Origin: Zeus faber
Lineage: Eukaryota > Chordata > Actinopteri > Zeiformes > Zeidae
Assembly: GCA_960531495.1 (NCBI GenBank)
Contig: OY482855.1
Span: 1,984,001 to 2,048,000 of the forward strand
Reading direction: 5' to 3'
DNA: 64,000 nucleotides
This document shows positions 1 to 64,000 of this stretch, piece after piece (position 1 is the first letter of the stretch; each line of letters starts with the position of its first letter). The notes below the pieces were generated by a model that was not told the origin of the DNA, searched no databases, and worked only from the letters and a program-made list of their open reading frames with translations. A program made the translations under genes and the position numbers.

Positions 1-3000
1 AGATTGAAAGAAAGATTGAAAGATTTAAAGAAAGATTGAAAGACTGAAAGAAATAATGAAAGGCAGATTAAAAGAAAGATTGAAAGTAAGGATTGAAAGA
101 AAGAATGAAAGAAAGATTGAAAGATTGCAAGAAAGAATGAAAGAAAGATTGCAAGAAAGAATGAAAGAAAGATTGAAAGAAAGAATGAAAGAAAGATTGA
201 AAGAAAGATTGAAAGATTGAAAGATTGAAATAAAGATTGAAAGTTTGAAAGAAAGATTGAAAGAAAGACTGAAAGATTGAAAGAAAGATTGAAAGAAAGA
301 TTGAAAGAATGAAAGATTGAAATAATGATTGAAAGTTTGAAAGAAAGATTGAAAGAAAGATTTAAACAAAGAAAGATTGAAAGTAAGAAAGATTGAAAGA
401 AATATTGAACGAAAGATTGAAAGAAAGGATGAAAGAAAGATTGAAAGAAAGATTGAAAAAAAGAAGGTTTGAAAGAAAGATTGAACGACTGAAGGATAGA
501 ATGAAAGAAAGATTGAAAGAAAGATTGAAAGAATGAAATATTGAAGGAAAGATTGAAAGATTGAATGATTGAAAGAAAGACTGAAAGAAAGATTGAAAAA
601 AGAAAGATTGAAAGAAAGAATAAAAGAAAGATTGATAGAAAGATGGAAAGAAAGAAAGATTGAAAGAAATAACAAAAGAAAGATTGAAAGAAAGAATGAA
701 AGAAAGATTGAACGATTGGAAGAAATATTGAAAGAAAGAAAGATTGAAAGTAAGATAGATTGAAAGTAAGAATGAAAGAAAGATTGAAAGATTTAAAGAA
801 AGAATGAAAGAAAGATTGAAAGATTGAAATATTGAAAGAAAGAATGAAAGAAAGATTGAAAGATTTGAAAGAAAGATTGAAAGATTGAAAGATTGAAATA
901 AAGATTGAAAGTTTGAAAGAATGATTGAAAGAGAGATTTAAAGAAAGATTTAAAGAAAGATTGAAAGACTGAAAGAAAGAATGAAAGGCAGATTGAAAGA
1001 AAGATTGAAAGTAAGAAAGATTGAAAGAAAGAATGAAAGAAAGATTGAAAGATTGCAAGAAAGAATGAAAGAAATATTGAAAGATTGAAATATTGAAAGA
1101 AAGAATGAAAGAAAGATTGAAAGTAAGACAGAAAGATTGAAAGAAAGATTGAAAGAAAGATTGAAAGATTGAAATAAAGATTGAAAGTTTGAAAGAAAGA
1201 TTGAAAGAAAGATTTAAAGAAAGAAAGAAAGATTGAAAGAAAGATTGAAAGAAAGATTGAAACAAAGAATGAAACAAAGATTGAAATAAAGAATGAAAGA
1301 AAGATTGAAAGAAAGATTGAAAGAAAGAAAGATTGAAAGTAAGAAAGATTGAAAGAAATATTGAAAGAAAGATTGAAAGATTGAAAGAAAGATTGAAAGA
1401 AAGAATGAAAGAAAGAATGAAAGAAAGATTGAAAGAAAGATTGAAAGAAAGATTGAAAGAAAGATTGAAAGACTGAAGGAAAGAATGAAAGAAAGATTGA
1501 AAGAAAGATTGAAAGAAAGAAAGATTGAAAGAAAGATTGAAAGATTGAATGATTGAAAGAAAGACTGAAAGATAGATTGAAAGATTGAAGATTGAAAGAT
1601 TCAAAGAAAGATTGAAAGAAAGATTGAACGACTGAAAGATTGAAAGAAAGATTGAAAGTTTGAAACAAATTTTGAAAGACTGAAAGAAAGAATGAAAGAA
1701 AGATTGAAAGAAAGATTGAAAAAAGAAAGATTGAAAGAATATTTGAAAGAAAGATTGAAAGAAGGAATGAAAGAAAGATTGAATGGAATATTGAAAGACA
1801 GAAAGATTGAAAGAAACAATGAAAGAAAGATTGAAAGATTAAAAGAAAGAATAAAAGAAAGATTGAAAAATTGAAAGATTGAAAGAAAGATTGAAAAAAA
1901 GATTGAAAGACTGGAAGAAAGAATGAAAGAAAGATTGAAAGATTCAACAATTGAAAGAATGATTGCAAGAAAGATTGAAAAAAGAAAGATTGAAAGAAAA
2001 TTTGAAAGAAAGATTGAAGAAGGAATGAAAGAAAGATTGAATGAAAAATTTAAAGACAGAAAGATTGAAAGAAAGAATGAAAGAAAGATTGAAAGAAAGA
2101 TTGAAAGATTAAAAGAAAGAATGAAAGAAAGATTGAAAAATTGAAAGATTGAAAGAAAGATTGAAATAAAGATTGAAAGACTGGAAGAAAGAATGAAAGA
2201 AAGATTGAAAGACTGGAAGAAAGAATGAAAGAAAGATTGAAAGATTCAACAATTGAAAGAAAGATTGCAAGAAAGATTTAAAAAAGAAAGATTGAAAGAA
2301 AGAATGAAAGAATGAAAGAAAGATTGAAAGATTGAAATATTGAAAGAAAGAATGAAAGAAAGATTGAAAGATGAAAGAAAGATTGAAAGAAAGATTGAAA
2401 GATTGAAAGATTGAAAGATTGAAATAAAGATTGAAAGTTTGAAAGAAAGATTGAAAGAAAGATTTAAAGAAAGAAAGATTGAAAGTAAGAAAGATTGAAA
2501 GAAATATTGAAAGAAAGATTGAAAAAAAGAAAGATTGAAAGAAAGATTGAAAGAAAGATTGAAAGACTGATGGAAAGAATGAAATAAAGATTGAAAGAAA
2601 GATTGAAAGAAAGAAATATTGAAGGAAAGATTGAAAGATTGAATGATCGAAAGAAAGACTGAAAGAAAGATTGACGGACAGAAAGATTGAAAGAAAGAAT
2701 GAAAGAAAGATTGAAAGAAAGAATGAAAGAAAGATTGAAAGATTAAACAATTGAAAGAAAGATTGCAAGAAAGATTGAAAAAAGAAAGATTGAAAGAAAG
2801 AATAAAAGAAAGATTGAAAGAAAGATGGAAAGAAAGATTGAACGATTGGAAACAATATTGAAAGAAAGAAAGATTGAAAGTAAGATAGATTGAAAGAAAG
2901 AATGAAAGAAAGATTGAAAGATTGAAAGAAAGAATGAAAGAAAGATTGAAAGATTGAAAGAAAGATTGAAAGATTTAAAGAAAGATTGAAAGACTGAAAG

Positions 3001-4350
3001 AAAGAATGAAAGGCAGATTGAAAGAAAGATTGAAAGTAAGGATTGAAAGAAAGAATGAAAGAAAGATTGAAAGATTGCAAGAAAGAATGAAAGAAAGATT
3101 GAAAGAAAGAATGAAAGAAAGATTGAAAGAAAGAATGAAAGAAAGATTGAAAGAAAGATTGAAAGATTGAAAGATTGAAATAAAGATTGAAAGTTTGAAA
3201 GAAAGATTGAAAGAAAGACTGAAAGAAAGATTGAAAGATTGAAAGAAAGATTGAAAGAAAGATTGAAAGATTGAAATATTGAAAGAAAGAATGAAAGAAA
3301 GATTGAAAGATTGAAAGAAAGATTGAAAGAATGAAAGATTGAAATAATGATTGAAAGTTTGAAAGAAAGATTGAAAGAAAGATTTAAACAAAGAAAGATT
3401 GAAAGTAAGAAAGATTGAAAGAAATATTGAACGAAAGATTGAAAGAAAGGATGAAAGAAAGATTGAAAGAAAGATTGAAAAAAAGAAGGTTTGAAAGAAA
3501 GATTGAACGACTGAAGGATAGAATGAAAGAAAGATTGAAAGAATGAAATATTGAAGGAAAGATTGAAAGATTGAATGATTGAAAGAAAGACTGAAAGAAA
3601 GATTGAAAAAAGAAAGATTGAAAGAAAGAATAAAAGAAAGATTGAAAGAAAGATGGAAAGAAAGAAAGATTGAAAGAAATAACAAAAGAAAGATTGAAAG
3701 AAAGAATGAAAGAAAGATTGAACGATTGGAAGAAATATTGAAAGAAAGAAAGATTGAAAGTAAGATAGATTGAAAGTAAGAATGAAAGAAAGATTTAAAG
3801 ATTTAAAGAAAGAAAGAAAGAAAGATTGAAAGATTGAAATATTGAAAGAAAGAATGAAAGAAAGATTGAAAGATTGAAAGAAAGATTGAAAGATTGAAAT
3901 AAAGATTGAAAGTTTGAAAGAATGATTGAAAGAGAGATTTAAAGAAAGATTTAAAGAAAGATTGAAAGACTGAAAGAAAGAATGAAAGGCAGATTGAAAG
4001 AAAGATTGAAAGTAAGAAAGATTGAAAGAAAGAATGAAAGAAAGATTGAAAGATTGCAAGAAAGAATGAAAGAAATATTGAAAGATTGAAATATTGAAAG
4101 AAAGAATGAAAGAAAGATTGAAAGTAAGAAAGAAAGATTGAAAGAAAGATTGAAAGAAAGATTGAAAGAAAGATTGAAAGATTGAAATAAAGATTGAAAG
4201 TTTGAAAGAAAGATTGAAAGAAAGATTTAAAGAAAGAAAGAAAGATTGAAAGAAAGATTGAAAGAAAGATTGAAAGAAAGATTGAAACAAAGAATGAAAC
4301 AAAGATTGAAATAAAGAATGAAAGAAAGATTGAAAGAAAGATTGAAAGAA
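1..4350 (+). repeat. Higher-order tandem duplication, period about 2.95-3.03 kb
   Basis: The block at about 1-1320 recurs at about 2951-4350 in the same orientation. Landmarks in matching order are aggcagatt (61 and 3011), the tttaaacaaagaaagatt block (about 361 and 3383), gaaggatagaatg (about 490 and 3510), and the run with caaagaatgaaacaaag (about 1262 and 4291). The offset drifts from 2950 to about 3028 through small insertions and deletions. Similarity ends near 1320/4350. The segment 1320-2950 between the copies is the rest of the 3-kb unit. This was read by eye, so the borders are approximate. Confidence 0.75.
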
Positions 4351-4594
4351 AGAAAGATTGAAAGATTGAATGATTGAAAGAAAGACTGAAAGAAAGAATG
4401 ACGGACAGAAAGATTGAAAGAAAGAATGAAAGAAAGATTGAAAAAAAGATTGAAAGACTGAAAGAAAGAATGAAAGAAACATTGAAAGATTAAACAATTG
4501 AAAGAAAGATTGCAAGAAAGATGGAAAGAATGAAAGATTGAAATAATGATTGAAAGTTTGAAAGAATGATTGAAAGAAAGATTTAAACAAAGAA

Positions 4595-4599
4595 AGATT
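4595..4599 (+). repeat. Target-site duplication, left copy (AGATT)
   Basis: AGATT directly abuts the 3' tail of the L2 element and is repeated at its other end (7870-7874). The base before it differs between the two sides, so the shared sequence is exactly 5 bp. AGATT is also part of the satellite unit. The duplication is therefore convincing mainly because removing the insert plus one AGATT restores a sequence found intact at about 374-390 and 3396-3412. Confidence 0.7.
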
Positions 4600-4617
4600 A
4601 CATTTACATTTACATTT
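4600..4617 (-). repeat. L2 3'-terminal TGTAAA-type tail
   Basis: Three copies of ACATTT on the + strand, which read (AAATGT)3 on the element's own strand. L2-clade LINEs end in short tandem repeats of this kind rather than poly(A). They are thought to arise during target-primed reverse transcription. The repeat sits directly against the AGATT target duplication, so the 3' end of the element is complete. Confidence 0.85.
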
Positions 4618-4753
4618 AGTCATTTAGCAGACGCTTTTATCCAAAGCGACTTACAAGGGAGAATAACATTCAGCTACATTGCGACAGAGATTAGTGTAAC
4701 AACAACATTGGTGTAACAATAAATACTGCAAGGTGGTGCTCAGTAATTGTAGA
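4618..4753 (-). other. L2 3' UTR with conserved RT-recognition hairpin
   Basis: About 136 bases between the ORF stop and the tail. On the element strand 4632-4648 reads CGCTTT-GGATA-AAAGCG: a 6-bp perfect stem closing a 5-base GGATA loop. A 3' stem-loop with a GGATA loop is known from the eel L2-clade element UnaL2 and its partner SINE, where the reverse transcriptase needs it to start copying. The flanking GTAAGT and TCTGCTAAATG segments are also of the common fish type. The 3' end appears intact even though the ORF is broken. Confidence 0.8.
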
Positions 4754-5100
4754 TTAGGACAGGAGGTACTCACTGAAGAGCTGGGTCTTCAGGTGCTTCT
4801 TAAAGACAGAGAGGGAGGTCCCCGCTCTGGTCATTTTTGGCAGCTCGTTCCACCAACGTGGAACTACAAATGAGAATAGCCTGGATTGCCGTGGCTGTAT
4901 GGCCGGCAGAGCCAGGTGACACTCATTAGACGAGGGCAGCATCCGGGGGGCAACATGTGCTCTTACAAGAGCATTTAAGTAGGCGGGAGCATTCCCAACA
5001 ATCACTCTGTAGGCCAGCATAAGAGACTTGAACTTGATGCGGGCGGCTACAGGTTACCAGTGGAGTTCGATGAGCAGCGGAGTGACATGTGCCCTCTTTG
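4754..5100 (-). pseudogene. L2 ORF2, C-terminal end (after RT thumb)
   Basis: Last part of the L2 polyprotein, in a different frame from the RT palm. Readable residues include KRAHVTPLL, then HW, a stop codon (TAA, 5054-5056), then PVAARIKFK, LMLAYRVIVGNAPAYL, RAHVAPRML, RQSRLFSFVVPRWWNELP and a terminal LKTQLFSEYLL. The closing stop is just below 4757. The domain after the RT in L2 elements has no assigned enzyme activity; the conserved FVVPRWWNELP segment is a good clade marker. Upstream, this frame begins at a deletion junction near 5100-5106, where the RT frame stops making family sense. An in-frame stop plus the frame change make this part untranslatable as a fusion with the RT. Confidence 0.85.
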
Positions 5101-5756
5101 GCTGGTGCGAAGCGGCAGGACCGGGAGACGGGGGCAACATGGTCCGAGAATGTCAGTTGGTCATCAATAATGACACCAAGATTCCTTGCAGCCTTGGTAG
5201 GAACAAGAGATAGAGAGTCGATTTTAATATCAATGTTGTGATAAATACCTTGTTTGGCCGGGAAGACCAGCAGTTCCGTTTTCGCCAGATTTAGTTGAAG
5301 ATGATAATCCTTCATCCATGTGGATATGTCAGCGAGACAATCCGAGATCCGCGTCGAGACAGTAGGGTCGTCGGGCGGGAAGGACAGATAGAGTTGAGTA
5401 TCATCCGCATAGCAGTGATATGAAAAGCCTTGTGAGCGGATGATCGGGCCCAGTGAGGTGGTGTATATGGCAAAGAGGAGGGGTCCTAGCACCGAGCCTT
5501 GGGGCACCCCTGTGGTGAGGTTGTGAGGCACAGACAGCTGGCCTCGCCATGTCACACTGAACGAGCGCCCAGTAAGGTAAGATTCGAACCAGGAAAGTGC
5601 ACTGCCCGTTATGCCCATGCTTGAGAGTATGGACAGGAGTATGCAATGATTGACAGTGTCAAAAGCAGCTGATAAGTCTAGCAGAATGAGGACCGAGGAT
5701 TTGGCAGCAGCTCTAGCAGTTTTTAAGGCCTCTGTCACAGACAACAGGGCTGTTTA
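5101..5756 (-). pseudogene. L2 ORF2, reverse transcriptase palm and thumb start
   Basis: Continues the endonuclease ORF in the same frame after an in-frame TAA at 5754-5756, which falls in the HST-TALLSV segment where relatives have a sense codon, usually Glu. RT motifs in order: DLSAAFD (motif A, 5658-5678), GVPQGSVLGPLLF (motif B, 5472-5510), the catalytic YADD (motif C, 5400-5411), AKTELLVFPAK (motif D) and ARNLGVIIDDQLTF (motif E). After SRSCRFA, near 5106, the family sequence jumps. From my memory of related proteins, about 60 codons are missing, including a YCNALLAGLP-type segment, and the frame changes. The open frame runs on to 4926, but that stretch is a shadow of the C-terminal frame. 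Catalytic residues are all present. Confidence 0.9.
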
Positions 5757-7475
5757 AGTGGAGTGACCACTTTTGAAGCCAGATTGAAGTGTATCAAGAA
5801 GGTTGTTCCTTGACAGGTACTCTGTAACCTGTCTAGAGACCGCCCTCTCTAAGGTTTTGGAAAGGAATGGGAGGAGAGAGACCGGCCGATAGTTTCCTAC
5901 TTGATTGGGATCGAGTGAGGGTTTTTTGAGCAGTGGTGCGACCCGAGCCGCTTTGAAAGCGGAAGGGAAAGTGCCGGAAGTTAGGGAAGAATTGATCACA
6001 TGTGTGATTGCCGGGGTGATAGTCGGTGATATGGCTTGAAGGAGGTTGGATGGGATCGGATCTAGCGGACAGGTAGTAGGACGGCTACATGTTAGTAGTT
6101 TAGATACCTCACTTTCAGCGAGGGGGGCGAAACCAGGGAACGATGAGCCTAGGGCTGGAGAAGACAGGTTGTGAGTAAGTTGTTTAGTTAATTGGCTGCT
6201 GATGGCTGCCACTTTGTTAGTAAAAAAGGAGGCAAGGCAGTCAGCAGTGAGGTTAGTAGCTGGGGGAGGTGGTGGAGGGTAAAGCAGAGACTTGAAGGTG
6301 GTGAATAACGTACGTGTGTCTGTGGCACCGTTGATCCTATCGTTGAAGAAGGCCTTCTTGGCAGCAGTGATGCCGGAAGAGAAGGAGGACAGCAGTGTCT
6401 GGTAGCTAGCAAGATCCTCAGTTGTTTTGGATTTGTGCCATTTCCTCTCGGCTGCTCTGAGGTCAGTGCGCGTTGTCCGGAGGGTGTCAGTCAGCCAAGG
6501 GTGCGACTGGGTTGAACGAGCAGGTCTGGTGGATAGTGGACACAGGATATCCAGACATGAGCTCAAGGTGGAGCAGAGGGAGTCAGTGGCATCATTAACC
6601 TGCAGAGAGGAGAAAGTGCCATGGGGTGGAAGAGAAGAGGAGAGCACAGAGGAGAAGTGGGTGGGAGACAAGTTGCGGAGATTGCTGCGGATAGTAACCA
6701 TGGGTGGGGAGGTGGGGGGTTGTTTTGGTAGCTGGACATTGAAGTGGATGAAGAAGTGGTCAGAGAGATGAAGAGGAGTGACCCATAGGTTGTCGGTGGT
6801 ACAGCTCCGAGCAAGAATGAGATCAAGCTCTTTGCCAGCCTTGTGAGTCGGTGGAGTCGGGATCTGTCTTAGGTCGAACGAGCGAACCAAAGACAGGAAG
6901 TCAGCCGAGCTCGCACTGTCCAAGTGAATGTTCATGTCTCCGAGGACGAGCATGGGACACTCGTGCTCAGGGATTGATGACAGCAGGGTGTCAAGCTCAT
7001 GTAGGAAGTCACCTAGTTGTCCTGGTGGATGGTAGATGACGACCACATAGGCTTTCACCGGAGCAGTCACCAAGACGGCGTGATATTCAAAGGAGGCAAA
7101 GTTGTTTAAAGGCAGCAGTGGATTAAATTTCCATGTGTTGGAAATTAGCAGGCCAGTCCCACCACCACGGCCAGATGGTCTGGATGTGTGGGAGAATGAG
7201 TAGTTAGTGGAGAGTGTAGCCGGGGTTGCGCTATCTTCCGGTTTAATCCATGTCTCAGTGAGAGCAAGGAGCTCTAAGGAGAGTTGGTTGGCATGACCAG
7301 AAATGAAGTCTGCCTTGTTAACTGCAGATCGACAATTCCACAAGCCAACAGAGAAGGAGGTCTTTGCAGAAGATGTTTGCTGCAGGGACCTGAGGTTACC
7401 CGGATTGCATCGGCGTATGGTATAACGACGCTTTCTGGGTGACCTTGAAGTTGTAGGGATGCGGTAGTAGCACAC
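5757..7475 (-). pseudogene. L2 ORF2, APE endonuclease plus RT N-terminal region
   Basis: 573 open codons. Residues about 44-246 form an APE-type endonuclease, which in LINEs nicks the target DNA: GLWNCRS (44-50), LTETW (72-76), RGGGTGLLIS (103-112), VLGDMNIH (177-184), ELDLIL (216-221) and LSDHFFIHF (237-245), giving the catalytic Asn, Glu, Asp and His positions. A linker follows, then RT fingers with CPLDPIPSNLL and NYRPVSLLPFLSKTLERAV (528-546). The frame ends at a TAA at 5754-5756 inside the RT. The first codon is GTG, not ATG. The frame stays open upstream only to a stop at 7560-7562, and no ATG occurs before residue 174, so the natural start is lost or lay in another frame. An overlapping frame with a real ATG at 7621-7623 (ending 7396) may be the original N-terminus, but this is uncertain. 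Confidence 0.88.
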
Positions 7476-7869
7476 TTTGTATGGAGTGAGAGAAAGAAGG
7501 CAGGTTTGCCTTGTTCGGTGTCCTTGCTTCGGTTGACGTGCAGAGGTAGACGTGCGTCTTTACACAGAGCGTCTTCACACGAGAGCGACTACAAATGGGC
7601 CAACGCTTGAAGGGCAGGACCATAAATAGGTGATAGAATACAGCTGCTCGTGTGATTAGGGTTGCACCTGGCTAAGAGCACGCCCACATAAGAGAGGACT
7701 TACCTGAATAGGGGGTGTGTCTGGAACACAAGCTTGTTGGCAGATCAGCAAATAGCAGTGAAATGTACAGAGTCAATCCAGTAGTCCAAGTTGCAATACT
7801 ACAATACGAGCAGTGATACACTACACAGCAACCTCAGCACTAGAGCTCGACTCAGAGTTAGCTCGACTC
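7476..7869 (-). other. L2 5' leader region
   Basis: About 394 bases of ordinary-complexity DNA upstream of the readable ORF. It contains a short ATG-initiated frame (7396-7623) that overlaps the endonuclease ORF in another frame and no recognisable ORF1 domain. I see no clear core promoter. Its outer end carries an 11-bp direct repeat, GCTCGACTCAG, at 7845-7855 and 7861-7871, 16 bp apart; the last two bases overlap the AGATT target duplication. Because the element begins in complex sequence and not within the ORF, it is probably full length or nearly so. Confidence 0.6.
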
Positions 7870-7874
7870 AGATT
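7870..7874 (+). repeat. Target-site duplication, right copy (AGATT)
   Basis: Second AGATT, abutting the 5' end of the element. It is followed by gaaagtaagaaagattg, exactly the satellite sequence that follows tttaaacaaagaaagatt at the uninterrupted copies near 374 and 3396. This fixes the outer border of the L2 insertion at 7869/7870. Confidence 0.7.
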
Positions 7875-8058
7875 GAAAGTAAGAAAGATTGAAAGAAATA
7901 TTGAACGAAAGATTGAAAGAAAGGATGAAAGAAAGATTGGAAGAAAGATTTAAACAAAGAAAGATTGAAAGTAAGAAAGATTGAAAGAAATATTGAACGA
8001 AAGATTGAAAGAAAGGATGAAAGAAAGATTGAAAGAAAGATTGAAAAAAAGAAAGATT
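7875..8058 (+). repeat. 92-bp tandem duplication next to the L2 5' flank
   Basis: The segment starting gaaagtaagaaagattg at 7875, with gaaatattgaacg and gaaaggatg inside, is repeated starting at 7967, an offset of 92. The copy at 7967 is again preceded by tttaaacaaagaaagatt, the L2 target context. This places an empty copy of the target within 100 bp of the occupied one. Confidence 0.7.
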
Positions 8059-9555
8059 GAAAGAAAGATTGAACGACTGAAGAAAAGAATGAAAGAAAGA
8101 TTGAAAGAAAGATTGAAAGAAAGAAATATTGAAGGAAAGATTGAAAGATTGAATGATTGAAAGAAAGACTGAAAGAAAGATTGACCGACAGAAAGATTGA
8201 AAGAAAGAATGAAAGAAAGATTGAAAGAAAGAATGAAAGAAAGATTGAAAGATTAAACAATTGAAAGAAAGATTGCAAGAAAGATTGAAAAAAGAAAGAT
8301 TGAAAGAAAGAATAAAAGAAAGATTGAAAGAAAGATGGAAAGAAAGAAAGATTGAAAGAAATAACAAAAGAAAGATTGAAAGAAAGAATGAAAGAAAGAT
8401 TGGAAGACTGAAAGAAAGAATGAAAGGCAGATTGAAAGAAAGATTGAAAGTAAGAAAAATTGAAAGAAAGAATGAAAGAAAGATTGAAAGATTGCAAGAA
8501 AGAATGAAAGAAATATTGAAAGATTGAAATATTGAAAGAAAGAATGAAAGAAAGATTGAAAGATTGAAAGAAAGATTGAAAGATTGAAATAAAGATTGAA
8601 AGTTTGAAAGAAAGATTGAAAGAAAGATTTAAAGAAAGAAAGAAAGATTGAAAGAAAGATTGAAAGAAAGATTGAAAGAAAGAAAGATTGAATAATTGAA
8701 AGAAAGACTGAAAGAAAGAATGACGGACAGAAAGATTGAAAGAAAGAATGAAAGAAAGATTGAAAGAAAGATTTAAACAAGAAAGATTGAAAGTAAGAAA
8801 GATTGAAAGAAATATTGAACGAAAGATTGAAAGAAAGGATGAAAGAAAGATTGAAAGAAAGATTGAAAAAAAGGAAGATTGAAAGAAAGATTGAATGACT
8901 GAAGAAAAGAATGAAAGAAAGATTGAAAGAAAGATTGAAAGAAAGAAATATTGAAGGAAAGATTGAAAGATTGAATGATTGAAAGAAAGACTGAAAGAAA
9001 GATTGACCGACAGAAAGATTGAAAGAAAGAATGAAAGAAAGATTGAAAGAAAGAATGAAAGAAAGATTGAAAGATTAAACAATTGAAAGAAAGATTGCAA
9101 GAAAGATTGAAAAAAGAAAGATTGAAAGAAAGAATAAAAGAAAGATTGAAAGAAAGATGGAAAGAAAGAAAGATTGAAAGAAATAACAAAAGAAAGATTG
9201 AAAGAAAGAATGAAAGAAAGATTGAAAGACTGAAAGAAAGAATGAAAGGCAGATTGAAAGAAAGATTGAAAGTAAGAAAAATTGAAAGAAAGAATGAAAG
9301 AAAGATTGAAAGATTGCAAGAAAGAATGAAAGAAATATTGAAAGATTGAAATATTGAAAGAAAGAATGAAAGAAAGATTGAAAGATTGAAAGAAAGATTG
9401 AAATATTGAAATAAAGATTGAAAGTTTGAAAGAAAGATTGAAAGAAAGATTTAAAGAAAGAAAGATTGAAAGATTGAATAATTGAAAGAAAGACTGAAAG
9501 AAAGAATGACGGACAGAAAGATTGAAAGAAAGAATGAAAGAAAGATTGAAAAAAG
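7953..9555 (+). repeat. Higher-order tandem duplication, period about 822 bp
   Basis: Copy 1 (about 7953-8765) and copy 2 (about 8770-9555) share landmarks in the same order: gactgaagaaaagaatg (8077 and 8899), gaccgacag (8186 and 9006), gattaaacaattg, gaaataacaaaag, aaggcagatt, gtaagaaaaattg, and tgacggacag (8723 and 9509). The offset is 822 over most of the length, dropping to 786 near the end through a net 36-bp loss. The two copies translate to nearly the same peptides in every frame, so the duplication is relatively recent. Confidence 0.85.
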
Positions 9556-12500
9556 ATTGAAAGACTGAAAGAAAGAATGAAAGAAACATTGAAAGATTAA
9601 ACAATTGAAAGAAAGATTGCAAGAAAGATGGAAAGAATGAAAGATTGAAATAATGATTAAAAGTTTGAAAGAAAGTTTGAAAGAAAGATTTAAACAAAGA
9701 AAGATTGAAAGTAAGAAAGATTGAAAGAAGTGTTGAACGAAAGATTGAAAGAAAGGATGAAAGAAAGATTGAAAGAAAGATTGAAAAAAAGAAAGATTGA
9801 AAGAATGATTGAACGACTGAAGGAAAGAATGAAAGAAAGATTGAAAGAAAGATTGAAAGAAATAAATATTGAAGGAAAGATTGAAAGATTGAATGACTGA
9901 AAGAAAGACTGAAAGAAAGATTGACCGACAGTAAGATTGAAAGAAAGAATGAAAGAAAGATTGAAAGAAAGAATGAAAGAAAGATTGAAAGTTTGAAAGA
10001 AAGATTGAAAGAAAGATTTAAAGAATGATTGAAAGACTGAAAGAAAGAATGAAAGGCAGATTGAAAGAAAGATTGAAAGTAAGAAAGATTGAAAGAAAGA
10101 ATGAAAGAAAGATTGAAAGATTGCAAGAAAGAATGAAAGAAATATTGAAAGATTGAAATATTGAAAGAAAGAATGAAAGAAAGATTGAAAGATTGAAAGA
10201 AAGATTGAAAGTTTGAAAGAAAGATTGAAAGAAAGATTTAAAGAAAGAAAGAAAGATTGAAAGAAAGATTGACAGACAGAAAGATTGAAAGAAAGAATGA
10301 AAGAAAGATTGAAAGAAAGAATGAAAGAAAGATTGAAAGTTTGAAAGAAAGTTTGAAAGAAAGATTTAAAGAAAGATTGAAAGACTGAAAGAAAGAATGA
10401 AAGGCAGATTGAAAGAAAGATTGAAAGTAAGAAAGATTGAAAGAAAGAATGAAAGAAAGATTGAAAGATTGCAAGAAAGAATGAAAGAAATATTGAAAGA
10501 TTGAAATATTGAAAGAAAGAATGAAAGAAAGATTGAAAGATTGAAAGAAAGATTGAAAGAAAGATTGAAAGATTGAAATAAAGATTGAAAGTTTGAAAGA
10601 AAGATTGAAAGAAAGATTTAAAGAAAGAAAGAAAGATTGAAAGAAAGATTGATAGAAAGATTGAAAGAAAGAATGAAACAAAGATTGAAATAAAGAATGA
10701 AAGAAAGATTGAAAGAAAGATTGAAAGAAAGACTGAAAGAAAGAATGACGGACAGAAAGATTGAAAGAAAGAATGAAAGAAAGATTGAAAAAAAGATTGA
10801 AAGACTGAAAGAAAGAATGAAAGAAACATTGAAAGATTAAACAATTGAAAGAAAGATTGCAAGAAAGATGGAAAGTAAGATTGAAAGAAATAAAGATTGA
10901 AAGAAATAACAAAAGAAAGATTGAAAGAAAAAATGAAAGATAGAAAAATTGAAAGTAAGAAAGATTGAAAGAATGAAAGAAAGATTGATAGAAAGATTGA
11001 AATAAAGATTGAAAGTTTGAAAGAAAGATTGAAAGAAAGATTGAAAGAAAGAAAGAAAGATTGAAAGAAAGATTGAAAGAAAGAATGAAACAAAGATTGA
11101 AATAAAGAATGAAAGAAAGATTGAAAGAAAGATTGAAAGAAAGAATGACGGACAGAAAGATTGAAAGAAAGAATGAAAGAAAGATTGAAAGATTGAAACA
11201 TTGAAAGAAAGAATGAAAAAGATTGAAAGATTGAAAGAAAGATTTAAAGAAAGATTGAAAGACTGAAAGAAACAAAGATTGAAATAAAGAATGAAAGAAA
11301 TATTGAAAGAAAGAAAGATTGAATGATTGAATGATTGAAAGAAAGACTGAAAGAAAGAATGACGGACAGAAAGATTGAAAGAAAGAATGAAAGAAAGATT
11401 GAGAAAAAGATTGAAAGACTGAAAGAAAGAATGAAAGAAACATTGAAAGATTAAACAATTGAAAGAAAGATTGCAAGAAAGATGGAAAGCAAGATTGAAA
11501 GAAATAAAGATTGAAAGAAATAACAAAAGAAAGATTGAAAGAAATAATGAAAGATAGAAAAATTGAAAGTAAGAAAGATTGAAAGAATGAATGAAAGAAA
11601 GATTGAAAGATTGAAAGATTGAAATATTGAAAGAAAGATTGAATGTTTGAAAAAAGATTGAAAGTATTAAAGATCGAAAGAAATATTCAAAGAAAGATTG
11701 AAAGATTGAAAGAAAGAATGAAAGAACGATTGAAAGAAAGAATGAATGAATGAAAGAAAGAATGAAAGATTAAACAATTGAAAGAAAGATTGCAAGAAAG
11801 ATTGAAAAAAGAAATATTGAAAGAAAGAATGAAAGAAAGATTGAAAGAAAGTTGGAAAGAAAGATTGAAAGAAAGAAAGATTGAAAGAAATAATGAAAGA
11901 AAGATAGAACGATTGGAAGAAATATTGAAAGATAGAAAAATTGAAAGTAAGAAAGATTGAAAGAAAGAATGATAAAAAGATTGAAAGATTGAAAGAAAGA
12001 ATGAAAGAAAGATTGAAAGATTGAAATATTGAAAGATAGAATGAAAGAAAGATTGAAAGATTGAAAGAAAGATTGAAAGAAAGATTGAAAGATTGAATGA
12101 TTGAAAGAAAGATTGAATGTTTGAAAGAAAGATTGAAAGAAAGATTTAAAGAAACAAAGATTGAAAGAAATATTGAAAGAAAGATTGAAAGAAAGATGGA
12201 AAGAAAGAAAGATTGAAAGAAATAACAAAAGAAAGATTGAAAGAAAGAATGAAAGAAAGATTGAAAGACTGAAAGAAAGAATGAAAGGCAGATTGAAAGA
12301 AAGATTGAAAGTAAGAAAAATTGAAAGAAAGAATGAAAGAAAGATTGAAAGATTGCAAGAAAGAATGAAAGAAAGATTGAAAGATTGCAAGAAAGAATGA
12401 AAGAAATATTGAAAGATTGAAAGAAAGAATGAAAGAAAGATTGAAAGATTGAAAGAAAGATTGAAATATTGAAATAAAGATTGAAAGTTTGAAAGAAAGA

Positions 12501-15170
12501 TTGAAAGAAAGATTTAAAGAAAGAAAGAAAGATTGAAAGAAAGATTGAAAGAAAGATTGAAAGAAAGATTGAAAGAAAGAAAGATTGAAAGATTGAATAA
12601 TTGAAAGAAAGACTGAAAGAAAGAATGACGGACAGAAAGATTGAAAGAAAGAATGAAAGAAAGATTGAAAAAAGATTGAAAGACTGAAAGAAAGAATGAA
12701 AGAAACATTGAAAGATTAAACAATTGAAAGAAAGATTGCAAGAAAGATGGAAAGAATGAAAGATTGAAATAATGATTAAAAGTTTGAAAGAAAGTTTGAA
12801 AGAAAGATTTAAACAAAGAAAGATTGTAAGTAAGAAAGATTGAAAGAAATGTTGAACGAAAGATTGAAAGAAAGGATGAAAGAAAGATTGAAAGAAAGAT
12901 TGAAAAAAAGAAAGATTGAAAGAATGATTGAACGACTGAAGGAAAGAATGAAAGAAAGATTGAAAGAAAGATTGAAAGAAATAAATATTGAAGGAAAGAT
13001 TGAAAGATTGAATGACTGAAAGAAAGACTGAAAGAAAGATTGACAGACAGAAAGATTGAAAGAAAGAATGAAAGAAAGATTGAAAGATTGAATGACTGAA
13101 AGAAAGACTGAAAGAAAGATTGACAGACAGAAAGATTGAAAGAAAGAATGAAAGAAAGATTGAAAGAAAGAATGAAAGAAAGATTGAAAGTTTGAAAGAA
13201 AGATTGAAAGAAAGATTTAAAGAAAGATTGAAAGACTGAAAGAAAGAATGAAAGGCAGATTGAAAGAAAGATTGAAAGTAAGAAAGATTGAAAGAAAGAA
13301 TGAAAGAAAGATTGAAAGATTGCAAGAAAGAATGAAAGAAATATTGAAAGATTGAAATATTGAAAGAAAGAATGAAAGAAAGATTGAAAGATTGAAAGAT
13401 AGATTGAAAGTTTGAAAGAAAGATTGAAAGAAAGAAAGAAAGATTGAAAGAAAGATTGACAGACAGAAAGATTGAAAGAAAGAATGAAAGAAAGATTGAA
13501 AGAAAGAATGAAAGAAAGATTGAAAGTTTGAAAGAAAGTTTGAAAGAAAGATTTAAAGAAAGATTGAAAGACTGAAAGAAAGAATGAAAGGCAGATTGAA
13601 AGAAAGATTGAAAGTAAGAAAGATTGAAAGAAAGAATGAAAGAAAGATTGAAAGATTGCAAGAAAGAATGAAAGAAATATTGAAAGATTGAAATATTGAA
13701 AGAAAGAATGAAAGAAAGATTGAAAGATTGAAAGAAAGATTGAAAGAAAGATTGAAAGATTGAAATAAAGATTGAAAGTTTGAAAGAAAGATTGAAAGAA
13801 AGATTTAAAGAAAGAAAGAAAGATTGAAAGAAAGATTGATAGAAAGATTGAAAGAAAGAATGAAACAAAGATTGAAATAAAGAATGAAAGAAAGATTGAA
13901 AGAAAGATTGAAAGAAAGAAAGATTGAAAGATTGAATGATTGAAAGAAAGACTGAAAGAAAGAATGACGGACAGAAAGATTGAAAGAAAGAATGAAAGAA
14001 AGATTGAAAAAAAGATTGAAAGACTGAAAGAAAGAATGAAAGAAACATTGAAAGATTAAACAATTGAACGAAAGATTGCAAGAAAGATGGAAAGTAAGAT
14101 TGAAAGAAATAAAGATTGAAAGAAATAACAAAAGAAAGATTGAAAGAAAAAATGAAAGATAGAAAAATTGAAAGTAAGAAATATTGAAAGAATGAAAGAA
14201 AGATTGATAGAAAGATTGAAAGATTGAAATAAAGATTGAAAGTTTGAAAGAAAGATTGAAAGAAAGATTGAAAGAAAGAAAGAAAGATTGAAAGAAAGAT
14301 TGAAAGAAAGAATGAAACAAAGATTGAAATAAAGAATGAAAGAAAGATTGAAAGAAAGATTGAAAGAAAGAATGACGGACAGAAAGATTGAAAGAAAGAA
14401 TGAAAGAAAGATTGAAAAAAAGATTGAAAGACTGAAAGAAAGAATGAAAGAAACATTGAAAGATTAAACAATTGAAAGAAAGATTGCAAGAAAGATGGAA
14501 AGCAAGATTGAAAGAAATAAAGATTGAAAGAAATAACAAAAGAAAGATTGAAAGAAATAATGAAAGATAGAAAAATTGAAAGTAAGAAAGATTGAAAGAA
14601 TGAATGAAAGAAAGATTGAAAGATTGAAATATTGAAAGAAAGATTGAATGTTTGAAAAAAGATTGAAAGTATTAAAGATCGAAAGAAATATTCAAAGAAA
14701 GATTGAAAGATTGAAAGAAAGAATGAAAGAACGATTGAAAGAAAGAATGAATGAATGAAAGAAAGAATGAAAGATTAAACAATTGAAAGAAAGATTGCAA
14801 GAAAGATTGAAAAAAGAAATATTGAAAGAAAGAATGAAAGAAAGATTGAAAGAAAGTTGGAAAGAAAGATTGAAAGAAAGAAAGATTGAAAGAAATAATG
14901 AAAGAAAGATAGAACGATTGGAAGAAATATTGAAAGATAGAAAAATTGAAAGTAAGAAAGATTGAAAGAAAGAATGATAAAAAGATTGAAAGATTGAAAG
15001 AAAGAATGAAAGAAAGATTGAAAGATTGAAATATTGAAAGATAGAATGAAAGAAAGATTGAAAGATTGAAAGAAAGATTGAAAGAAAGATTGAAAGATTA
15101 AAAGATTGAAAGAAAGATTGAATGTTTGAAAGAAAGATTGAAAGAAAGATTTAAAGAAAGAAAGATTGAA
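9360..15170 (+). repeat. Higher-order tandem duplication, period about 3.0-3.2 kb
   Basis: About 9360-12150 recurs at about 12420-15170. Matching landmarks are tgacggacag (9509/12628, 10748/13967, 11148/14376), gaccgacag/gacagacag (9922/13043), and gaaagaatgataaaaag (about 11968/14974). The offset moves between 3005 and about 3228. The first copy carries an additional gacggacag-bearing segment of about 0.2 kb near 11.2-11.45 kb that is missing from the second. The period resembles the 3.0-kb one at the left end of the window. Confidence 0.75.
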
Positions 15171-15779
15171 AGAAATATTGAAAGAAAGATTGAAAGAAAG
15201 ATTGAAAGAAAGATTGAAAGATTAAAAGATTGAAATAATGATTGAAAGTTTGAAAGAAAGATTGAAAGAACGATTTAAAGAAAGAAAGATTGAAAGAAAT
15301 ATTGAAAGATTGAAAGAAAGATTGAAAGAAAGAATGAAAGAAAGATTGAAAGAAAGATTGAAAAAAAGAAAGATTGAAAGAAAGATTGAAATACTGAAGG
15401 AAAGAATAAAAGAAAGATTGAAAGAAAGATTGAAAGAAAGATTGAAAGAAAGATTGAAAGATTGAAAGAAAGAATGAAAAATTGAAAGAAAGAATGAAAG
15501 AACGATTGAAAGAAAGAATGAAAGAATGAAAGAAAGATTGAAAGATTGAAAGAAATATTGAAAGAAAGAGAGAATGAAAGATTGAAAGATTGAAAGAAAG
15601 ATTGAAAGTAATAAAGATTGAAAGTAAAAATGAAAGAAAAATTGAAAGATTGAAAGATTGAAAGAAAGATTGAAAGAAAGATTTAAAGAAAGATTGAAAG
15701 ACTGAAAGAAAGAATGAATAAAAGAATTAAAGAAAGATTGAAAGATTTATTGATTGAAAGAAAGAATGAAAGAAAGATT

Positions 15780-17760
15780 GAAAGATCTAAAGAACTATTG
15801 AAAGAAAGATTGAAAGATTGAAAGATTGAAATAAAGATTGAAAGTTTGAAAGAAAGATTGAAAGAAAGATTTAAAGAAAGAAAGATTGAAAGAAATATTG
15901 AAAGAAAGATTGAAAGAAATAACAAAAGAAAGATTGAAAGAAAGAATGAAAGAAAGATTGAACGATTGGAAGAAATATTGAAAGAAAGATAGATTGAAAG
16001 TAAGATAGATTGAAAGAAAGAATGAAAGAAAAAATGAAAGATTTAAAGAAAGAATGAAAGAAAGATTGAAAGATTGAAACATTGAAAGAAAGAATGAAAA
16101 AGATTGAAAGATTGAAAGAAAGATTTAAAGAAAGATTGAAAGACTGAAAGAAACAAAGATTGAAATAAAGAATGAAAGAAATATTGAAAGAAAGATTGAA
16201 AGAAAGAAAGATTGAATGATTGAATGATTGAAAGAAAGACTGAAAGAAAGAATGACGGACAGAAAGATTGAAAGAAAGAATGAAAGAAAGATTGAGAAAA
16301 AGATTGAAAGACTGAAAGAAAGAATGAAAGAAACATTGAAAGATTAAACAATTGAAAGAAAGATTGCAAGAAAAATGGAAAGAATGAAAGATTAAAATAA
16401 TAATTGAAAGTTTGAAAGAAAGATTGAAAGAAAGATTTAAAGAAAGAAAGATTGAAAGAAATATTGAAAGAAAGATTGAAAGATTGAAAGAAAGATTGAA
16501 AGAAAGATTGAAAGAATGAAAGAAAGAATGAATAAAAGAATTAAAGAAAGATTGAAAGATTTATTGATTGAAAGAAAGAATGAAAGAAAGATTGAAAGAT
16601 CTAAAGAACGATTGAAAGAAAGATTGAAAGATTGAAATAAAGATTGAAAGTTTGAAAGAAAGATTGAAAGAAAGATTTAAAGAAAGAAAGATTGAAAGAA
16701 ATATTGAAAGAAAGATTGAAAGAAATAACAAAAGAAAGATTGAAAGAAAGAATGAAAGAAAGATTGAACAATTGGAAGAAATATTGAAAGAAAGATAGAT
16801 TGAAAGTAAGATAGATTGAAAGAATGAATGAAAGAAAGAATGAAAGAAAGAATGAAAGATTTAAAGAAAGAATGAAAGAAAGATTGAAACATTGAAACAT
16901 TGAAAGAAAGAATGAAAAAGATTGAAAGATTGAAAGAAAGATTTAAAGAAAGATTGAAAGACTGAAAGAAACAAAGATTGAAATAAAGAATGAAAGAAAT
17001 ATTGAAAGAAAGATTGAAAGAAAGAAAGATTGAATGATTGAATGATTGAAAGAAAGACTGAAAGAAAGAATGACGGACAGAAAGATTGAAAGAAAGAATG
17101 AAAGAAAGATTGAGAAAAAGATTGAAAGACTGAAAGAAAGAATGAAAGAAACATTGAAAGATTAAACAATTGAAAGAAAGATTGCAAGAAAAATGGAAAG
17201 AATGAAAGATTGAAATAATAATTGAAAGTTTGAAAGAAAGATTGAAAGAAAGATTTAAAGAAAGAAAGATTGAAAGAAATATTGACAGAAAGATTGAAAG
17301 AAATAACAAAAGAAAGATTGAAAGAAAGAATGAAAGAAAGATTGAACGATTGGAAGAAATATTGAAAGAAAGATAGATTGAAAGTAAGATAGATTGAAAG
17401 AAAGAATGAAAGAAAGATTGAAAGATTTAAAGAAAGATTGAAAGAAAGATTTAAAGAAAGATTGAAAGACTGAAAGAAACAAAGATTGAATTAAAGAATG
17501 AAAGAAAGATTGAAAGAAAGAAAGATTGAATGATTGAATGATTGAAAGAAAGACTGAAAGAAAGAATGACGGACAGAAAGATTGAAAGAAAGAATGAAAG
17601 AAAGATTGAAAAAAAGATTGAAAGACTGAAAGAAAGAATGAAAGAAACATTGAAAGATTAAACAATTGAAAGAAAGATTGCAAGAAAAATGGAAAGAATG
17701 AAAGATTGAAATAATGATTGAAAGTTTGAAAGAAAGTTTGAAAGAGAGATTTAAACAAAG
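15780..17760 (+). repeat. Three tandem copies, period about 820 bp (third shortened)
   Basis: The landmark gatctaaagaa recurs at about 15785 and 16608 (offset about 822). The landmark aaaaatggaaagaatg recurs at about 16372, 17191 and 17688, and tgacggacag at 16256, 17073 and 17569. The first two units are about 818 bp apart. The third follows after only about 497 bp, so it has lost roughly 320 bp. Within each unit gattgaatgattgaatgattg, gagaaaaag (units 1 and 2) and gattaaacaattg appear in fixed order. Confidence 0.78.
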
Positions 17761-17799
17761 AAAGATTGAAAGTAAGAAAGATAGAAAGAATGAATGAAA

Positions 17800-59800: not shown

Positions 59801-62800
59801 AAGTCATATAAATTGAAAGAAAGAATGAAAGAAAGATTGAACGATTGAAAGAAAGATTGAAAGAAAGAAAGATTGAAAGAAAGAATGAAAGACTGATTGA
59901 AAGAAAGAATGAAAGAAAGATTGAAAGAAAGAATGAAAGAATGAAAAAAAGATTTAAAGATTGAAAGAAATATTGAAAGTAATAAAAATTTAAAGAAAGA
60001 ATTAAAGAAAGATTGAAAGTAAGAAAGATTGAAAGAAAGATTGAAAGAAAGAATGAAAGAAAGATTAAAGGAAGGAATGAAAGAATGAAAGAAAGATTGA
60101 AAGATTGAAAGAAATATTGAAAGGAAGAAAGATTGAAAGTAAGAAAGATTGAAAGATTAAAAAAAAGAATAAAAGAAAGATTGAAAGATTGAAAAAAAGA
60201 TTGAACGAAATAATGAAAGAAAGATTGAAAGAAATAATGAAAGAAGGAATGAAAGAATGAAAGAAAGATTGAAAGAAATAGTGAACGTTAGAAAGATTGA
60301 AAAAAAGAATGAATAAAAGATTGAAAGAAAGATTGAAAAAAAGAAAGATTTAAAGAAATATTGAAAGAAAAATTTAAACAAAGATTGAAAGACTGAAAGA
60401 AAGATTGAAAGAAAGAATGAAAGAATGAAAGAAAGATTGAAAGAAAGATTGAAAGTCATATAAATTGAAAGAAAGAATGAAAGAAAGATTGAACGATTGA
60501 AAGAAAGATTGAAAGAAAGAAAGATTGAAAGAAAGAATGAAAGACAGATTGAAAGAAAGAATGAAAGAAAGATTGAAAGAAAGAATGAAAGAATGAAAAA
60601 AAGATTTAAAGATTGAAAGAAATATTGAAAGTAATAAAAATTTAAAGAAAGAATTAAAGAAAGATTGAAAGTAAGAAAGATTGAAAGAAAGATTGAAAGA
60701 AAGAATGAAAGAAAGATTAAAGGAAGGAATGAAATAATGAAAGAAAGATTGAAAGATTGAAAGAAATATTGAAAGGAAGAAAGATTGAAAGATTAAAAAA
60801 AAGAATAAAAGAAAGATTGAAAGATTGAAAAAAAGATTGAACGAAATAATGAAAGAAAGATTGAAAGAAATAATGAAAGAAGGAATGAAAGAATGAAAGA
60901 AAGATTGAAAGAAATATTGAACGTAAGAAAGATTGAAAAAAAGAATGAATAAAAGATTGAAAGAAAGATTGAAAAAAAGAAAGATTTAAAGAAATATTGA
61001 AAGAAAAATTTAAACAAAGATTGAAAGACTGAAAGAAAGATTGAAAGAAAGAATGAAAGAATGAAAGAAAGATTGAAAGAAAGAAAGATTGAAAGTCATA
61101 TAAATTGAAAGAAAGAATGAAAGAAAGATTGAAAGAAAGATTGAAAGAAAGATTGAAAAAAAGAAAGATTTGAAGAAATATTGAAAGAAAAATTTAAACA
61201 AAGATTGAAAGACTGAAAGAAAGATTGAAAGAAAGAATGAAAGAAAGATTGAAAGAAAGATTGAAAGAAAGAAAGATTGAAAGTCATATAAATTGAAAGA
61301 AAGAATGAAAGAAAGATTGAAAGAAAGAATGAAAGAAAGATTGAAACAAAGAATGAAACAAAGATTGAAATAAAGATTGAAAGAAAGAAAGATTGAAAGT
61401 CATTTAAATAGAAAGAAAGAATGAAAGAAAGATTGAACGATTGAAAGAAAGATTGAAATAAAGAAAGATTGAAAGAAAGAATGAAAGAATGAAAAAAAGA
61501 TATAAAGATTGAAAGAAAGAAAGATTGAAAGTAATAAAAATTGAAAGAAAAACTGAAAGAAAGATTGAAAGTAAGAAAGATTGAAAGAAAGATTGATAGA
61601 AAGATTGAAAGATTGAAAGATTGAAAGAAAGATTGAAAAAAAGAATAAAAGAAAGATTGAAAGAAAGATTGAAATAAATAATGAAAGAAAGATTAAAGGA
61701 AGGAATGAAAGAATGAAAGAAAGATTGAAAGATTGAATGAAATATTGAAAGAAAGAAAGATTGAAAGTAAGAAAGATTGAAAGATTAAAAAAAAGAATAA
61801 AAGAAAGATTGAAAGATTGAAAAAAAGATTGAACGAAATAATGAAAGAAAGATTGAAAGAAATAATGAAAGATTGAAAGAAAGAATGAAAGAATGAAAGA
61901 AAGATTGAAAGAAAGAAAGATTGAAAGAAAGAATGAAAGACCGATTGAAAGAAAGAATGAAAGAAAGATTGAAAGAAAGAATGAAAGAATGAAAAAAAGA
62001 TTTAAAGATTGAAAGAAGTATTGAAAGAAAGAAAGATTGAAAGTAATAAGAATTGAAAGAAAGACTGAAAGAAAGATTGAAAGTAAGAAAGATTGAAAAA
62101 AAGATTGAAAAGAAAGATTGATAGAAAGATTGAAAGATTGAAAGATTGAAAGAAAGATTGAAAAAAACAATAAAAGAAAGATTGAAAGATTGAAAGAAAG
62201 ATTGAAATAAATAATGAAAGAAAGATTAAAGGAAGGAATGAAAGAATGAAAGAAAGATTGAAAGATTGAAAGAAATATTGAAAGAAAGAAAAATTGAAAG
62301 TAAGAAAGATTGAAAGATTTAAATAAAGAATAAAAGAAAGATTGAAAGATTGAAAAAAAGATTGAAAGAAATAATGAAAGAAAGATTGAAAGAAATAATG
62401 AAAGAAGGAATGAAAGAATGAAAGAAAGATTGAAAGAAATATTGAAAGTAAGAAAGATTGAAAAAAAGAATGAAAGAAAGATTGAAAGAAAGATTGAAAA
62501 AAAGAAAGATTTAAAGAAATATTGAAAGAAAAATTTAAACAAAGATTGAAAGACTGAAAGAAAGATTGAAAGAAAGAATGAAAGAATGAAAGAAAGATTG
62601 AAAGAAAGATTGAAAGAAAGAAAGATTGAAAGTCATATAAATTGAAAGAAAGAATGAAAGAAAGATTGAACGATTGAAAGAAAGATTGAAAGAAAGAAAG
62701 ATTGAAAGAAAGAATGAAAGACAGATTGAAAGAAAGAATGAAAGAAAGATTGAAAGAAAGAATGAAAGAATGAAAAAAAGATTTAAAGATTGAAAGAAAT

Positions 62801-64000
62801 ATTGAAAGAAAGAAAGATTGAAAGTAATAAAAATTTAAAGAAAGAATGAAAGAAAGATTGAAAGTAAGAAAGATTGAGAGGAAGATTGAAAGAAAGATTG
62901 ATAGAAAGATTGAAAGATTGAAAGATTGAAAGAAAGATTGAAAAAAAGAATAAAAGAAAGATTGAAAGATTGAAAAAAAGATTGAAAGAAATAATGAAAG
63001 AAAGATTGAAAGAAATAATGAAAGAAGGAATGAAAGAATGAAAGAAAGATTGAAAGAAATATTGAAAGTAAGAAAGATTGAAAAAAAGAATGAAAGAAAG
63101 ATTGAAAGAAAGATTGAAAAAAAGAAAGATTTAAAGAAATATTGAAAGAAAAATTTAAACAAAGATTGAAAGACTGAAAGAAAGATTGAAAGAAAGAATG
63201 AAAGAATGAAAGAAAGATTGAAAGAAAGAAAGATTGAAAGTCATATAAATTGAAAGAAAGAATGAAAGAAAGATTGAACGATTGAAAGAAAGATTGAAAG
63301 AAAGAAAGATTGAAAGAAAGAATGAAAGACAGATTGAAAGAAAGAATGAAAGAAAGATTGAAAGAAAGAATGAAAGAATGAAAAAAAGATTTAAAGATTG
63401 AAAGAAATATTGAAAGTAATAAAAATTTAAAGAAAGAATTAAAGAAAGATTGAAAGTAAGAAAGATTGAAAGAAAGATTGAAAGAAAGAATGAAAGAAAG
63501 ATTAAAGGAAGGAATGAAAGAATGAAAGAAAGATTGAAAGATTGAAAGAAATATTGAAAGGAAGAAAGATTGAAAGTAAGAAAGATTGAAAGATTAAAAA
63601 AAAGAATAAAAGAAAGATTGAAAGATTGAAAAAAAGATTGAACGAAATAATGAAAGAAAGATTGAAAGAAATAATGAAAGAAGGAATGAAAGAATGAAAG
63701 AAAGATTGAAAGAAATATTGAACGTAAGAAAGATTGAAAAAAAGAATGAATAAAAGATTGAAAGAAAGATTGAAAAAAAGAAAGATTTAAAGAAATATTG
63801 AAAGAAAAATTTAAACAAAGATTGAAAGACTGAAAGAAAGATTGAAAGAAAGAATGAAAGAATGAAAGAAAGATTGAAAGAAAGAAAGATTGAAAGTCAT
63901 ATAAATTGAAAGAAAGAATGAAAGAAAGATTGAAAGATTAAATGATTGAAAGAAAGATTGAAAGAAATAATGAAAGAAAGATTGAAAGAAATAATGGAAG
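56801..64000 (+). repeat. Family B block 5 (runs off the right edge)
   Basis: Family B landmarks to the end of the window, with gtcat at about 56868, 57898, 58525, 59811, 60457, 61096, 61282, 61398, 62635, 63239 and 63898. The stretch 58964-59720 resembles 61790-62550 at offset about 2829. A small variant (caaagaatgaaacaaag) near 61340 recalls the family A sequence at about 1262 and 4291. No gene is seen, and the array continues past the window. Confidence 0.85.
59811..61290 (+). repeat. Family B sub-unit repeated about every 640 bp
   Basis: The order gtcatataaattg, gaacgattg, gtaataaaaattt, gaattaaag, aggaaggaatg, gaacgaaataatg, aaaaatttaaac recurs with gtcat at 59811, 60457 and 61096 (spacings 646 and 639). 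Other landmarks give 636 and 652. It is the clearest local view of a family B sub-unit. Confidence 0.72.

Follow-up and report, generated by a model that had tools for sequence, protein, structure and literature searches.

The closest described systems to the DNA reported here are human. HSat2 and HSat3 (e.g. DYZ1) descend from the pentamer CATTC, a short simple motif that diverged and was re-amplified to units of 1.77 kb and 3.6 kb, and they form large heterochromatic arrays on several chromosomes, as summarised in PMC4022460. Alpha satellite is reviewed as higher-order copies arranged in layers, with uniform and older parts (PMC9859433), and the short arms of the human acrocentric chromosomes (13, 14, 15, 21 and 22) hold blocks of repeats and duplications common to non-homologous ends (PMC10172130). 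We compare with these systems a 64,000-nucleotide stretch of chromosome 11 of the John Dory, Zeus faber (assembly fZeuFab8, OY482855.1; C11:1984001-2048000), hereafter the window, which lies in an array of a 12-bp simple-motif satellite that we name sat12. Together with 20 kb of left flank and 40 kb of right flank, 124 kb containing no N were analysed, and searches were made in an assembly of 803.5 Mb in 153 contigs, in which C1 to C22 are chromosomes and C78, C82 and C140 are unplaced contigs. The genome note describes 804.7 Mb in 190 scaffolds, obtained from HiFi and Hi-C data with a contig N50 of 1.4 Mb and with haplotypic duplication purged (PMC11179049).

Since HSat2 and HSat3 already combine a simple motif with units at the kb scale, sat12 is of a known kind, and it has both the short founder motif and the kb-scale units of such satellites, as well as a presence on multiple chromosomes. 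The initial annotation of the window had treated higher-order structure as a mark of complex satellites, a view that the CATTC-derived units show not to be general (PMC4022460). What differs from HSat2/3 is the depth of the order, the pairing with a second satellite, here called S200, and the spread of one junction between the two over at least 10 chromosomes. Belonging to a fish and therefore to another animal group, sat12 is built of 4-bp words (consensus AGATTGAAAGAA) and is not related in sequence to CATTC/GAATG; its units, at 3-15 kb, are longer and less regular than those of HSat2/3, and the S200 junction recurs every ~100-150 kb. Alpha satellite has a monomer of ~171 bp, whereas sat12 has no such monomer, no CENP-B-like box within the satellite and a higher-order repeat (HOR) of variable length; its uniform part lies towards one side of the array, a position that does not imply the status of a core. 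The satellite is a readable case of order built from a 4-bp word to composite units of ~100 kb, with a distinct signature at each scale, and it demonstrates that a fish simple-motif satellite can bear the deep higher-order structure usually linked with complex satellites.

At the smallest scale the array reads as a succession of words led by G. Within 7873-64000, 10,404 of the 12,548 G-led words are exactly 4 bp long, the shares of GAAA, GATT and GAAT being 49%, 20% and 7%, and the G-to-G correlation at lag 4 is 3.8x. Between other words GAAA occurs in runs of one (2177), two (1763), three (151) or four to five (8), and in the units of 8 and 12 bp GATT or GAAT precedes one or two GAAA; the 12-bp consensus given above is that of Tandem Repeats Finder (TRF). 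The satellite is strand-asymmetric, with a base composition over the whole window of 57% A, 23% G, 18% T and 2% C. When 14 pairs of HOR copies were aligned, 54 of 59 indels proved to be multiples of 4 bp, alongside 86 substitutions over 34,991 aligned bases, a single pair supplying 36 of the substitutions and 21 of the indels. Whole 4-bp words are thus gained and lost (slippage) while kb segments duplicate.

Above the words stand kb-scale higher-order units, and these exceed chance. Self-BLAST of the window returned 10 rows, with one off-diagonal row of at least 500 bp, and was replaced by chains of k-mers and edit-distance tiles of 300 bp; in the scripts the one long interspersed nuclear element (LINE) in the array was delimited at about 4592/7872, its exact limits being 4600 and 7869. 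The best non-self match of 402 tiles has a median of 1 edit, and 379 of them lie closer than 29 edits (the smallest Markov-8 value, 34, minus 5). Markov nulls of orders 4, 8, 12 and 16, each compared with itself in 139 tiles, have minima of 46, 36, 36 and 29 edits, and at k=100 the repeated words amount to 78% in 7873-64000 against 0 in Markov sequences of orders 4, 8 and 12. Substitution identity between aligned kb-scale copies is 99.0-100%. At the scale of 0.6-0.82 kb, copies recur at offsets of 616, 652, 668 and 822 bp with 0-8 edits per 300 bp, and at ~3 kb the offsets are 3005, 3046 and 3187 bp, frequently with 0-1 edits. The largest scale within the window is 8.15-12 kb (also 15.1 kb), as traced by a 300-bp anchor at 17569, 27250, 35790 (0 edits), 47871 and 50905 (12 edits); the length of this HOR varies because sub-blocks of 1.5, 2.5, 2.6 and 3.0 kb have been duplicated within units. 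The nested scales that had been proposed from the GAAA/GATT tetranucleotide grammar (4 bp, 8/12 bp, 616-822 bp, ~3 kb and 8.15-12 kb as measured here) were accordingly all found, rather than a 4/12-bp periodicity alone, and the hierarchy extends beyond the window.

The sat12 array measures ~128-130 kb, from ~C11:1964541 to somewhere between 2092401 and 2095000 (read to 2088000 and then from 2092001). Apart from the left edge of the array, the LINE is the sole non-satellite island of at least 60 bp within the 124 kb, so that the description of the whole of 1-64000 as satellite holds for all but 4600-7869. In window coordinates, a sat12 domain with repeats of 4.4, 3.5 and 1.3 kb runs from -19.5 to -5 kb, and is followed by a domain with a repeat of ~2.95-3.03 kb that extends from -5 kb to occupy 1-4599 (plus strand; 12-bp unit by TRF; offsets of 2.95 and 5.9 kb; 283-1317 versus 3305-4342, 99.6%). 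Beyond the LINE lies an older zone at 7870-15600 (plus strand) with copies of 0.82 kb and 3.0-3.2 kb (9875-11164 versus 13074-14391, 99.5%), and then, at 15600-63800 (plus strand), the HOR of about 8.5-12 (15) kb in five anchored copies, with the internal duplications already named, sub-blocks of ~0.6 kb, and nine copy pairs at 99.7-100% substitution identity. The last 200 nucleotides or so (63800-64000, plus strand) begin the most uniform domain, with repeats of 3.73 kb and 18 kb, which spans 63.8 to 104 kb, was read through C11:2088000 and was seen again at 2092001-2092400, 44 kb beyond the window; bins from 66.8 kb onward show medians of 4-6 copies at no more than 6 edits. The most uniform part of the array therefore sits beyond the right edge of the window, while the older part is that at 4801-17200, with median best matches of 40 edits (the scoring ceiling) and 11 edits in two bins, LINE tiles counted. 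Each part of the array has a period of its own, and for this reason the ordered multi-scale array of the initial annotation survives as nested copies above the Markov nulls but not as one regular ladder.

An exact sat12 28-mer has 43,119 copies in the genome (reversed control 0), which at the sample density of 337 in 170,256 bp corresponds, crudely, to roughly 22 Mb of sat12 genome-wide; on C1 the first of them among the matches listed (100 of 43,119, all on C1, apparently in positional order) stands at 64.65 of 65.76 Mb. Two sat12 60-mers have 153 and 469 exact genome copies, and the matches listed (100 of 153 and 100 of 469) fall on 16 chromosomes, on each at one end only and within 3 Mb. 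With the addition of C14 and of C22 (1.13-1.65 Mb of 25.41 Mb), a sat12 block is present on 18 of the 22 chromosomes, at one end of each. In most listed 60-mer matches on 12 of the 16 chromosomes the purine-rich strand runs from the tip inward (one-sided binomial 0.04), although contig orientation there may be unreliable.

The second satellite, S200, has units of 196 and 206-208 bp and a 404-bp dimer (TRF). On C11 it lies at 225-510 kb, 1.30, 1.48, 2.15-2.25 and 2.70-2.80 Mb (L019, L022, L023, L026, L070, L071, L075, L083 and L084), and throughout C11:0-2.9 Mb sat12 and S200 alternate, with some stretches holding neither; 18 extra points on this chromosome comprised nine of sat12, five of S200 and four of neither, and two further probes located the right edge of the array. 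The C12 start also holds S200 (97.8% identity over 1000 bp). The two satellites alternate likewise at the C17 start, where sat12 or S200 was present at 6 of 10 points, one of which has both, and at the C3 end (8 of 10 points). The points nearest the C17 tip (C17:0.10 and 0.45 Mb; L089 and L090) hold a diverged relative of S200 that is ~70% identical. On C1 and C2, clusters of S200 are spaced 95-151 kb apart among the matches listed (100 of 2,729; C1 and the first part of C2), and, again among the matches listed, seven of ten clusters have a given sat12 60-mer 1.8-4.6 kb away, the remaining three having it at 10-106 kb.

Duplication reaches beyond the two satellites. On C11, 6.6 kb of the left flank of the window's array, up to the array border, is duplicated at 99.2% at a distance of 590.6 kb, and 8.6 kb of the right flank at 99.9% at a distance of 315.4 kb (L015/L024 and L017/L021 pairs). 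Over 9 tiles of 300 bp, the C11 array at 2.555 Mb lies a median of 2 edits from that of the window, and the C4 start (3 tiles) lies medians of 2-3 edits from the C11 arrays at 0.98, 1.88 and 1.93 Mb. Arrays are not all alike: most satellite tiles of C1 differ by 20-50 edits from the closest of the C11 sequences sampled. The array at the C11 tip (C11:1-10000; L009) is on the opposite strand, lies at least 28 edits per 300 bp from the other sampled C11 arrays and holds 0 copies of the common 28-mer.

The most telling arrangement is the point at which the two satellites meet. An identical sat12/S200 breakpoint was found on C1 (L173), C2 (L170, a fragment that ends just beyond the break) and C17 (L096), where the C1 and C17 copies match at 400 of 400 bases and, on the S200 side, C1 and C2 share 344 of 348. 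A 33-mer spanning the junction has 81 exact copies in the entire genome (reversed control 0), 59 of them on 10 chromosomes (C1 5, C2 16, C4 5, C5 6, C8 7, C13 5, C15 2, C17 6, C19 1 and C22 6) and 22 on five unplaced contigs; on C78, C82 and C140 they occur up to 2.0-2.4 Mb along. The spacing between junctions has a median of 119 kb, with 41 of 66 intervals within 90-170 kb; regular series occur on C22, with intervals of 90-112 kb (coefficient of variation 0.08), and on C78, with intervals of 94-103 kb (0.05). In 9 of the 11 contigs with at least three copies, all are on one strand. Since such a breakpoint is unlikely to arise many times, it is most likely that a piece bearing the junction was amplified whole and carried between chromosomes. 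At the junction S200 and sat12 point in opposite directions, whereas at the C11 loci compared and on C3 both point the same way; there are thus two layouts or more. A junction common to at least 10 chromosomes represents a countable marker of non-homologous exchange, which could be followed across individuals and related species to obtain a rate of exchange.

Taken together, sat12, S200 and the segmental duplications make up blocks that measure as much as ~3 Mb and occupy a single end in the majority of chromosomes. We interpret them as most likely non-coding structural heterochromatin, either pericentromeric or of the short arms of acrocentric-like chromosomes. Growth takes place at four scales, each visible in the sequence: the gain and loss of whole 4-bp words by slippage; the duplication of segments of 0.6-15 kb, which yields near-identical higher-order copies and an array more uniform on one side and older on the other; the union of sat12 and S200 at a single exact junction repeated every ~100-150 kb; and the presence of this junction on 10 or more chromosomes that are not homologous. 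The second and third may have proceeded by unequal exchange or break-induced replication, the fourth may reflect exchange between chromosome ends kept together in the nucleus, and the resulting blocks would be heterochromatic and would adjoin the centromere. More tentatively, and with distinctly less conviction, we speculate that the combined block might be the region beside the centromere across almost the entire karyotype, and that a composite mega-unit of ~100-150 kb, marked by a single founding junction, might have been handed on among many non-homologous chromosomes, with the result that their centromeric ends evolve together. If this were true, centromeric ends would co-evolve in the John Dory like the human acrocentric short arms, but karyotype-wide. 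The likeness to those arms lies in blocks common to non-homologous chromosome ends (PMC10172130); the differences are that here 18 of the 22 chromosomes carry the block and that exchange is deduced from identical junctions in one genome.

Where the initial annotation had named centromeric, subtelomeric and sex- or B-chromosome positions side by side, a centromeric or pericentromeric placement appears likelier than the others on the sequence evidence. Chromosome-end heterochromatin spread between ends, that is, a purely subtelomeric satellite unconnected with the centromere, would agree with the presence of sat12 at 5 of the 16 block-end tips examined (C1, C2, C3, C4 and C11) and with listed matches lying no more than ~3.1 Mb from the tip. 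Such a family is however expected at both ends, and each of the 18 chromosomes that showed the block did so at a single end, which counts against this explanation and makes it unlikely; what remains of the subtelomeric placement is that the blocks are chromosome-terminal. Sampling of the other ends of C3, C17 and C14 revealed sat12 or S200 at 0 of 25 points (3 all N, and 2 partly N on C3/C17). Of the 15 block chromosomes whose opposite end was readable, 7 (C3, C4, C7, C10, C15, C17 and C20) have a telomere array there, counted as at least 20 hexamers within the first 1000 or last 400 bases; none of 16 block ends has one. This check omitted the C21 end and C22; C1:1-1000, C21:1-1000 and some C3 and C17 points read as N. 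We regard it as more doubtful still that sat12 itself would be the DNA that binds CENP-A, its HORs working like those of alpha satellite. The layering of the HOR array into a homogenised portion and an older one that bears the LINE does resemble what is reviewed for human centromeres (PMC9859433), and sat12 is present on 18 of the 22 chromosomes, but a search of the window for the CENP-B box consensus gave a single 1-mismatch match, with 0.29 expected, and this match falls inside the LINE. S200, with its nucleosomal unit length, would be an equal or better candidate, yet it too is box-free, with 0 matches in one 10-kb sample.

Identical multi-kb copies are hard to assemble even from HiFi contigs that are purged and Hi-C scaffolded (PMC11179049), and four chromosomes lack a block, so an artefact might be suspected in which copies were mis-assembled and blocks mis-scaffolded onto chromosome ends. 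This is very improbable given that the window and 60 kb of flank hold 0 N, that the copies are set apart by distinct indels in multiples of 4 bp, and that the same structure occurs on many chromosomes. Scarcely credible, finally, is a satellite of a sex chromosome or a B chromosome. Multiple sex chromosomes have been reported for Zeus faber, but a review ranks the report as poorly supported (PMC8310710), the genome note names no sex chromosome (PMC11179049), and the occurrence of sat12 on 18 chromosomes refutes an exclusive localisation and with it the confinement that the annotation had entertained.

The pericentromeric or short-arm interpretation nevertheless has to contend with several observations of its own. 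One-sidedness is drawn from exact 60-mers and from the sampled opposite ends of three block chromosomes (C3, C14 and C17). No telomere array was found at 8 of the 15 readable opposite ends, and the C17 block end holds 16 telomere hexamers per kb. From telomere or telomere-like opposite ends, blocks were predicted at the C16, C18 and C6 start and the C9 end, but the prediction failed, sat12 or S200 being found there at 0 of 20 points; C16 and C18 showed neither satellite at either end (0 of 20 points in all), C6 and C9 having been sampled at one end. The junction 33-mer is absent from C11, the chromosome of the window, and from C3, C7, C10, C12, C14, C20 and C21, and the spacing of junctions is irregular on C2, C4, C13, C82 and C140. 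The junction-bearing unplaced contigs C78, C82 and C140 may be the blocks missing from C6, C9, C16 and C18.

A text search of the literature with five repeat forms of 12 to 21 letters gave no satellite paper by title, nor did one with GAAAGATT among the matches listed, and in literature combining Zeus faber with karyotype, satellite, repeat, centromere or acrocentric, sat12 is undescribed in the titles or abstract openings of the matches listed. Two minus-strand open reading frames of 626 and 752 aa in the window were considered as genes and rejected, as they translate to low-complexity F/S/L/N repeats; by sequence reasoning, frames of this length exist because the reverse-complement words contain no stop codons. 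ARAGORN found 0 tRNA in the window, and in an Rfam scan of the window the LINE element alone reached the gathering threshold.

This LINE (4600-7869, minus strand) belongs to the L2 clade; it resembles the UnaL2 / L2-clade LINEs of fishes in its UnaL2 3' element (4614-4667, minus strand; RF00436, E 1.2e-10) and in its endonuclease and reverse transcriptase domains, and differs in its setting as an insertion into the array that is no part of the satellite. One frame (5754-7475, minus strand) carries the endonuclease domain (PF03372, E 8.5e-14, above the cut-off) and the start of the reverse transcriptase (PF00078, E 1.6e-4; 21.9 bits, under the cut-off of 29.6), and a second (4926-5744, minus strand) carries the remaining reverse transcriptase (PF00078, E 4.7e-25). 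The element is located in the older zone of the array and is flanked by a 5-bp target-site duplication, AGATT, at 4595-4599 and 7870-7874, while further copies of the target, lacking the LINE, are present at 361 and 3383. The target-site duplication and the LINE-free targets in neighbouring units are most simply explained if the LINE arrived after those units had been duplicated.

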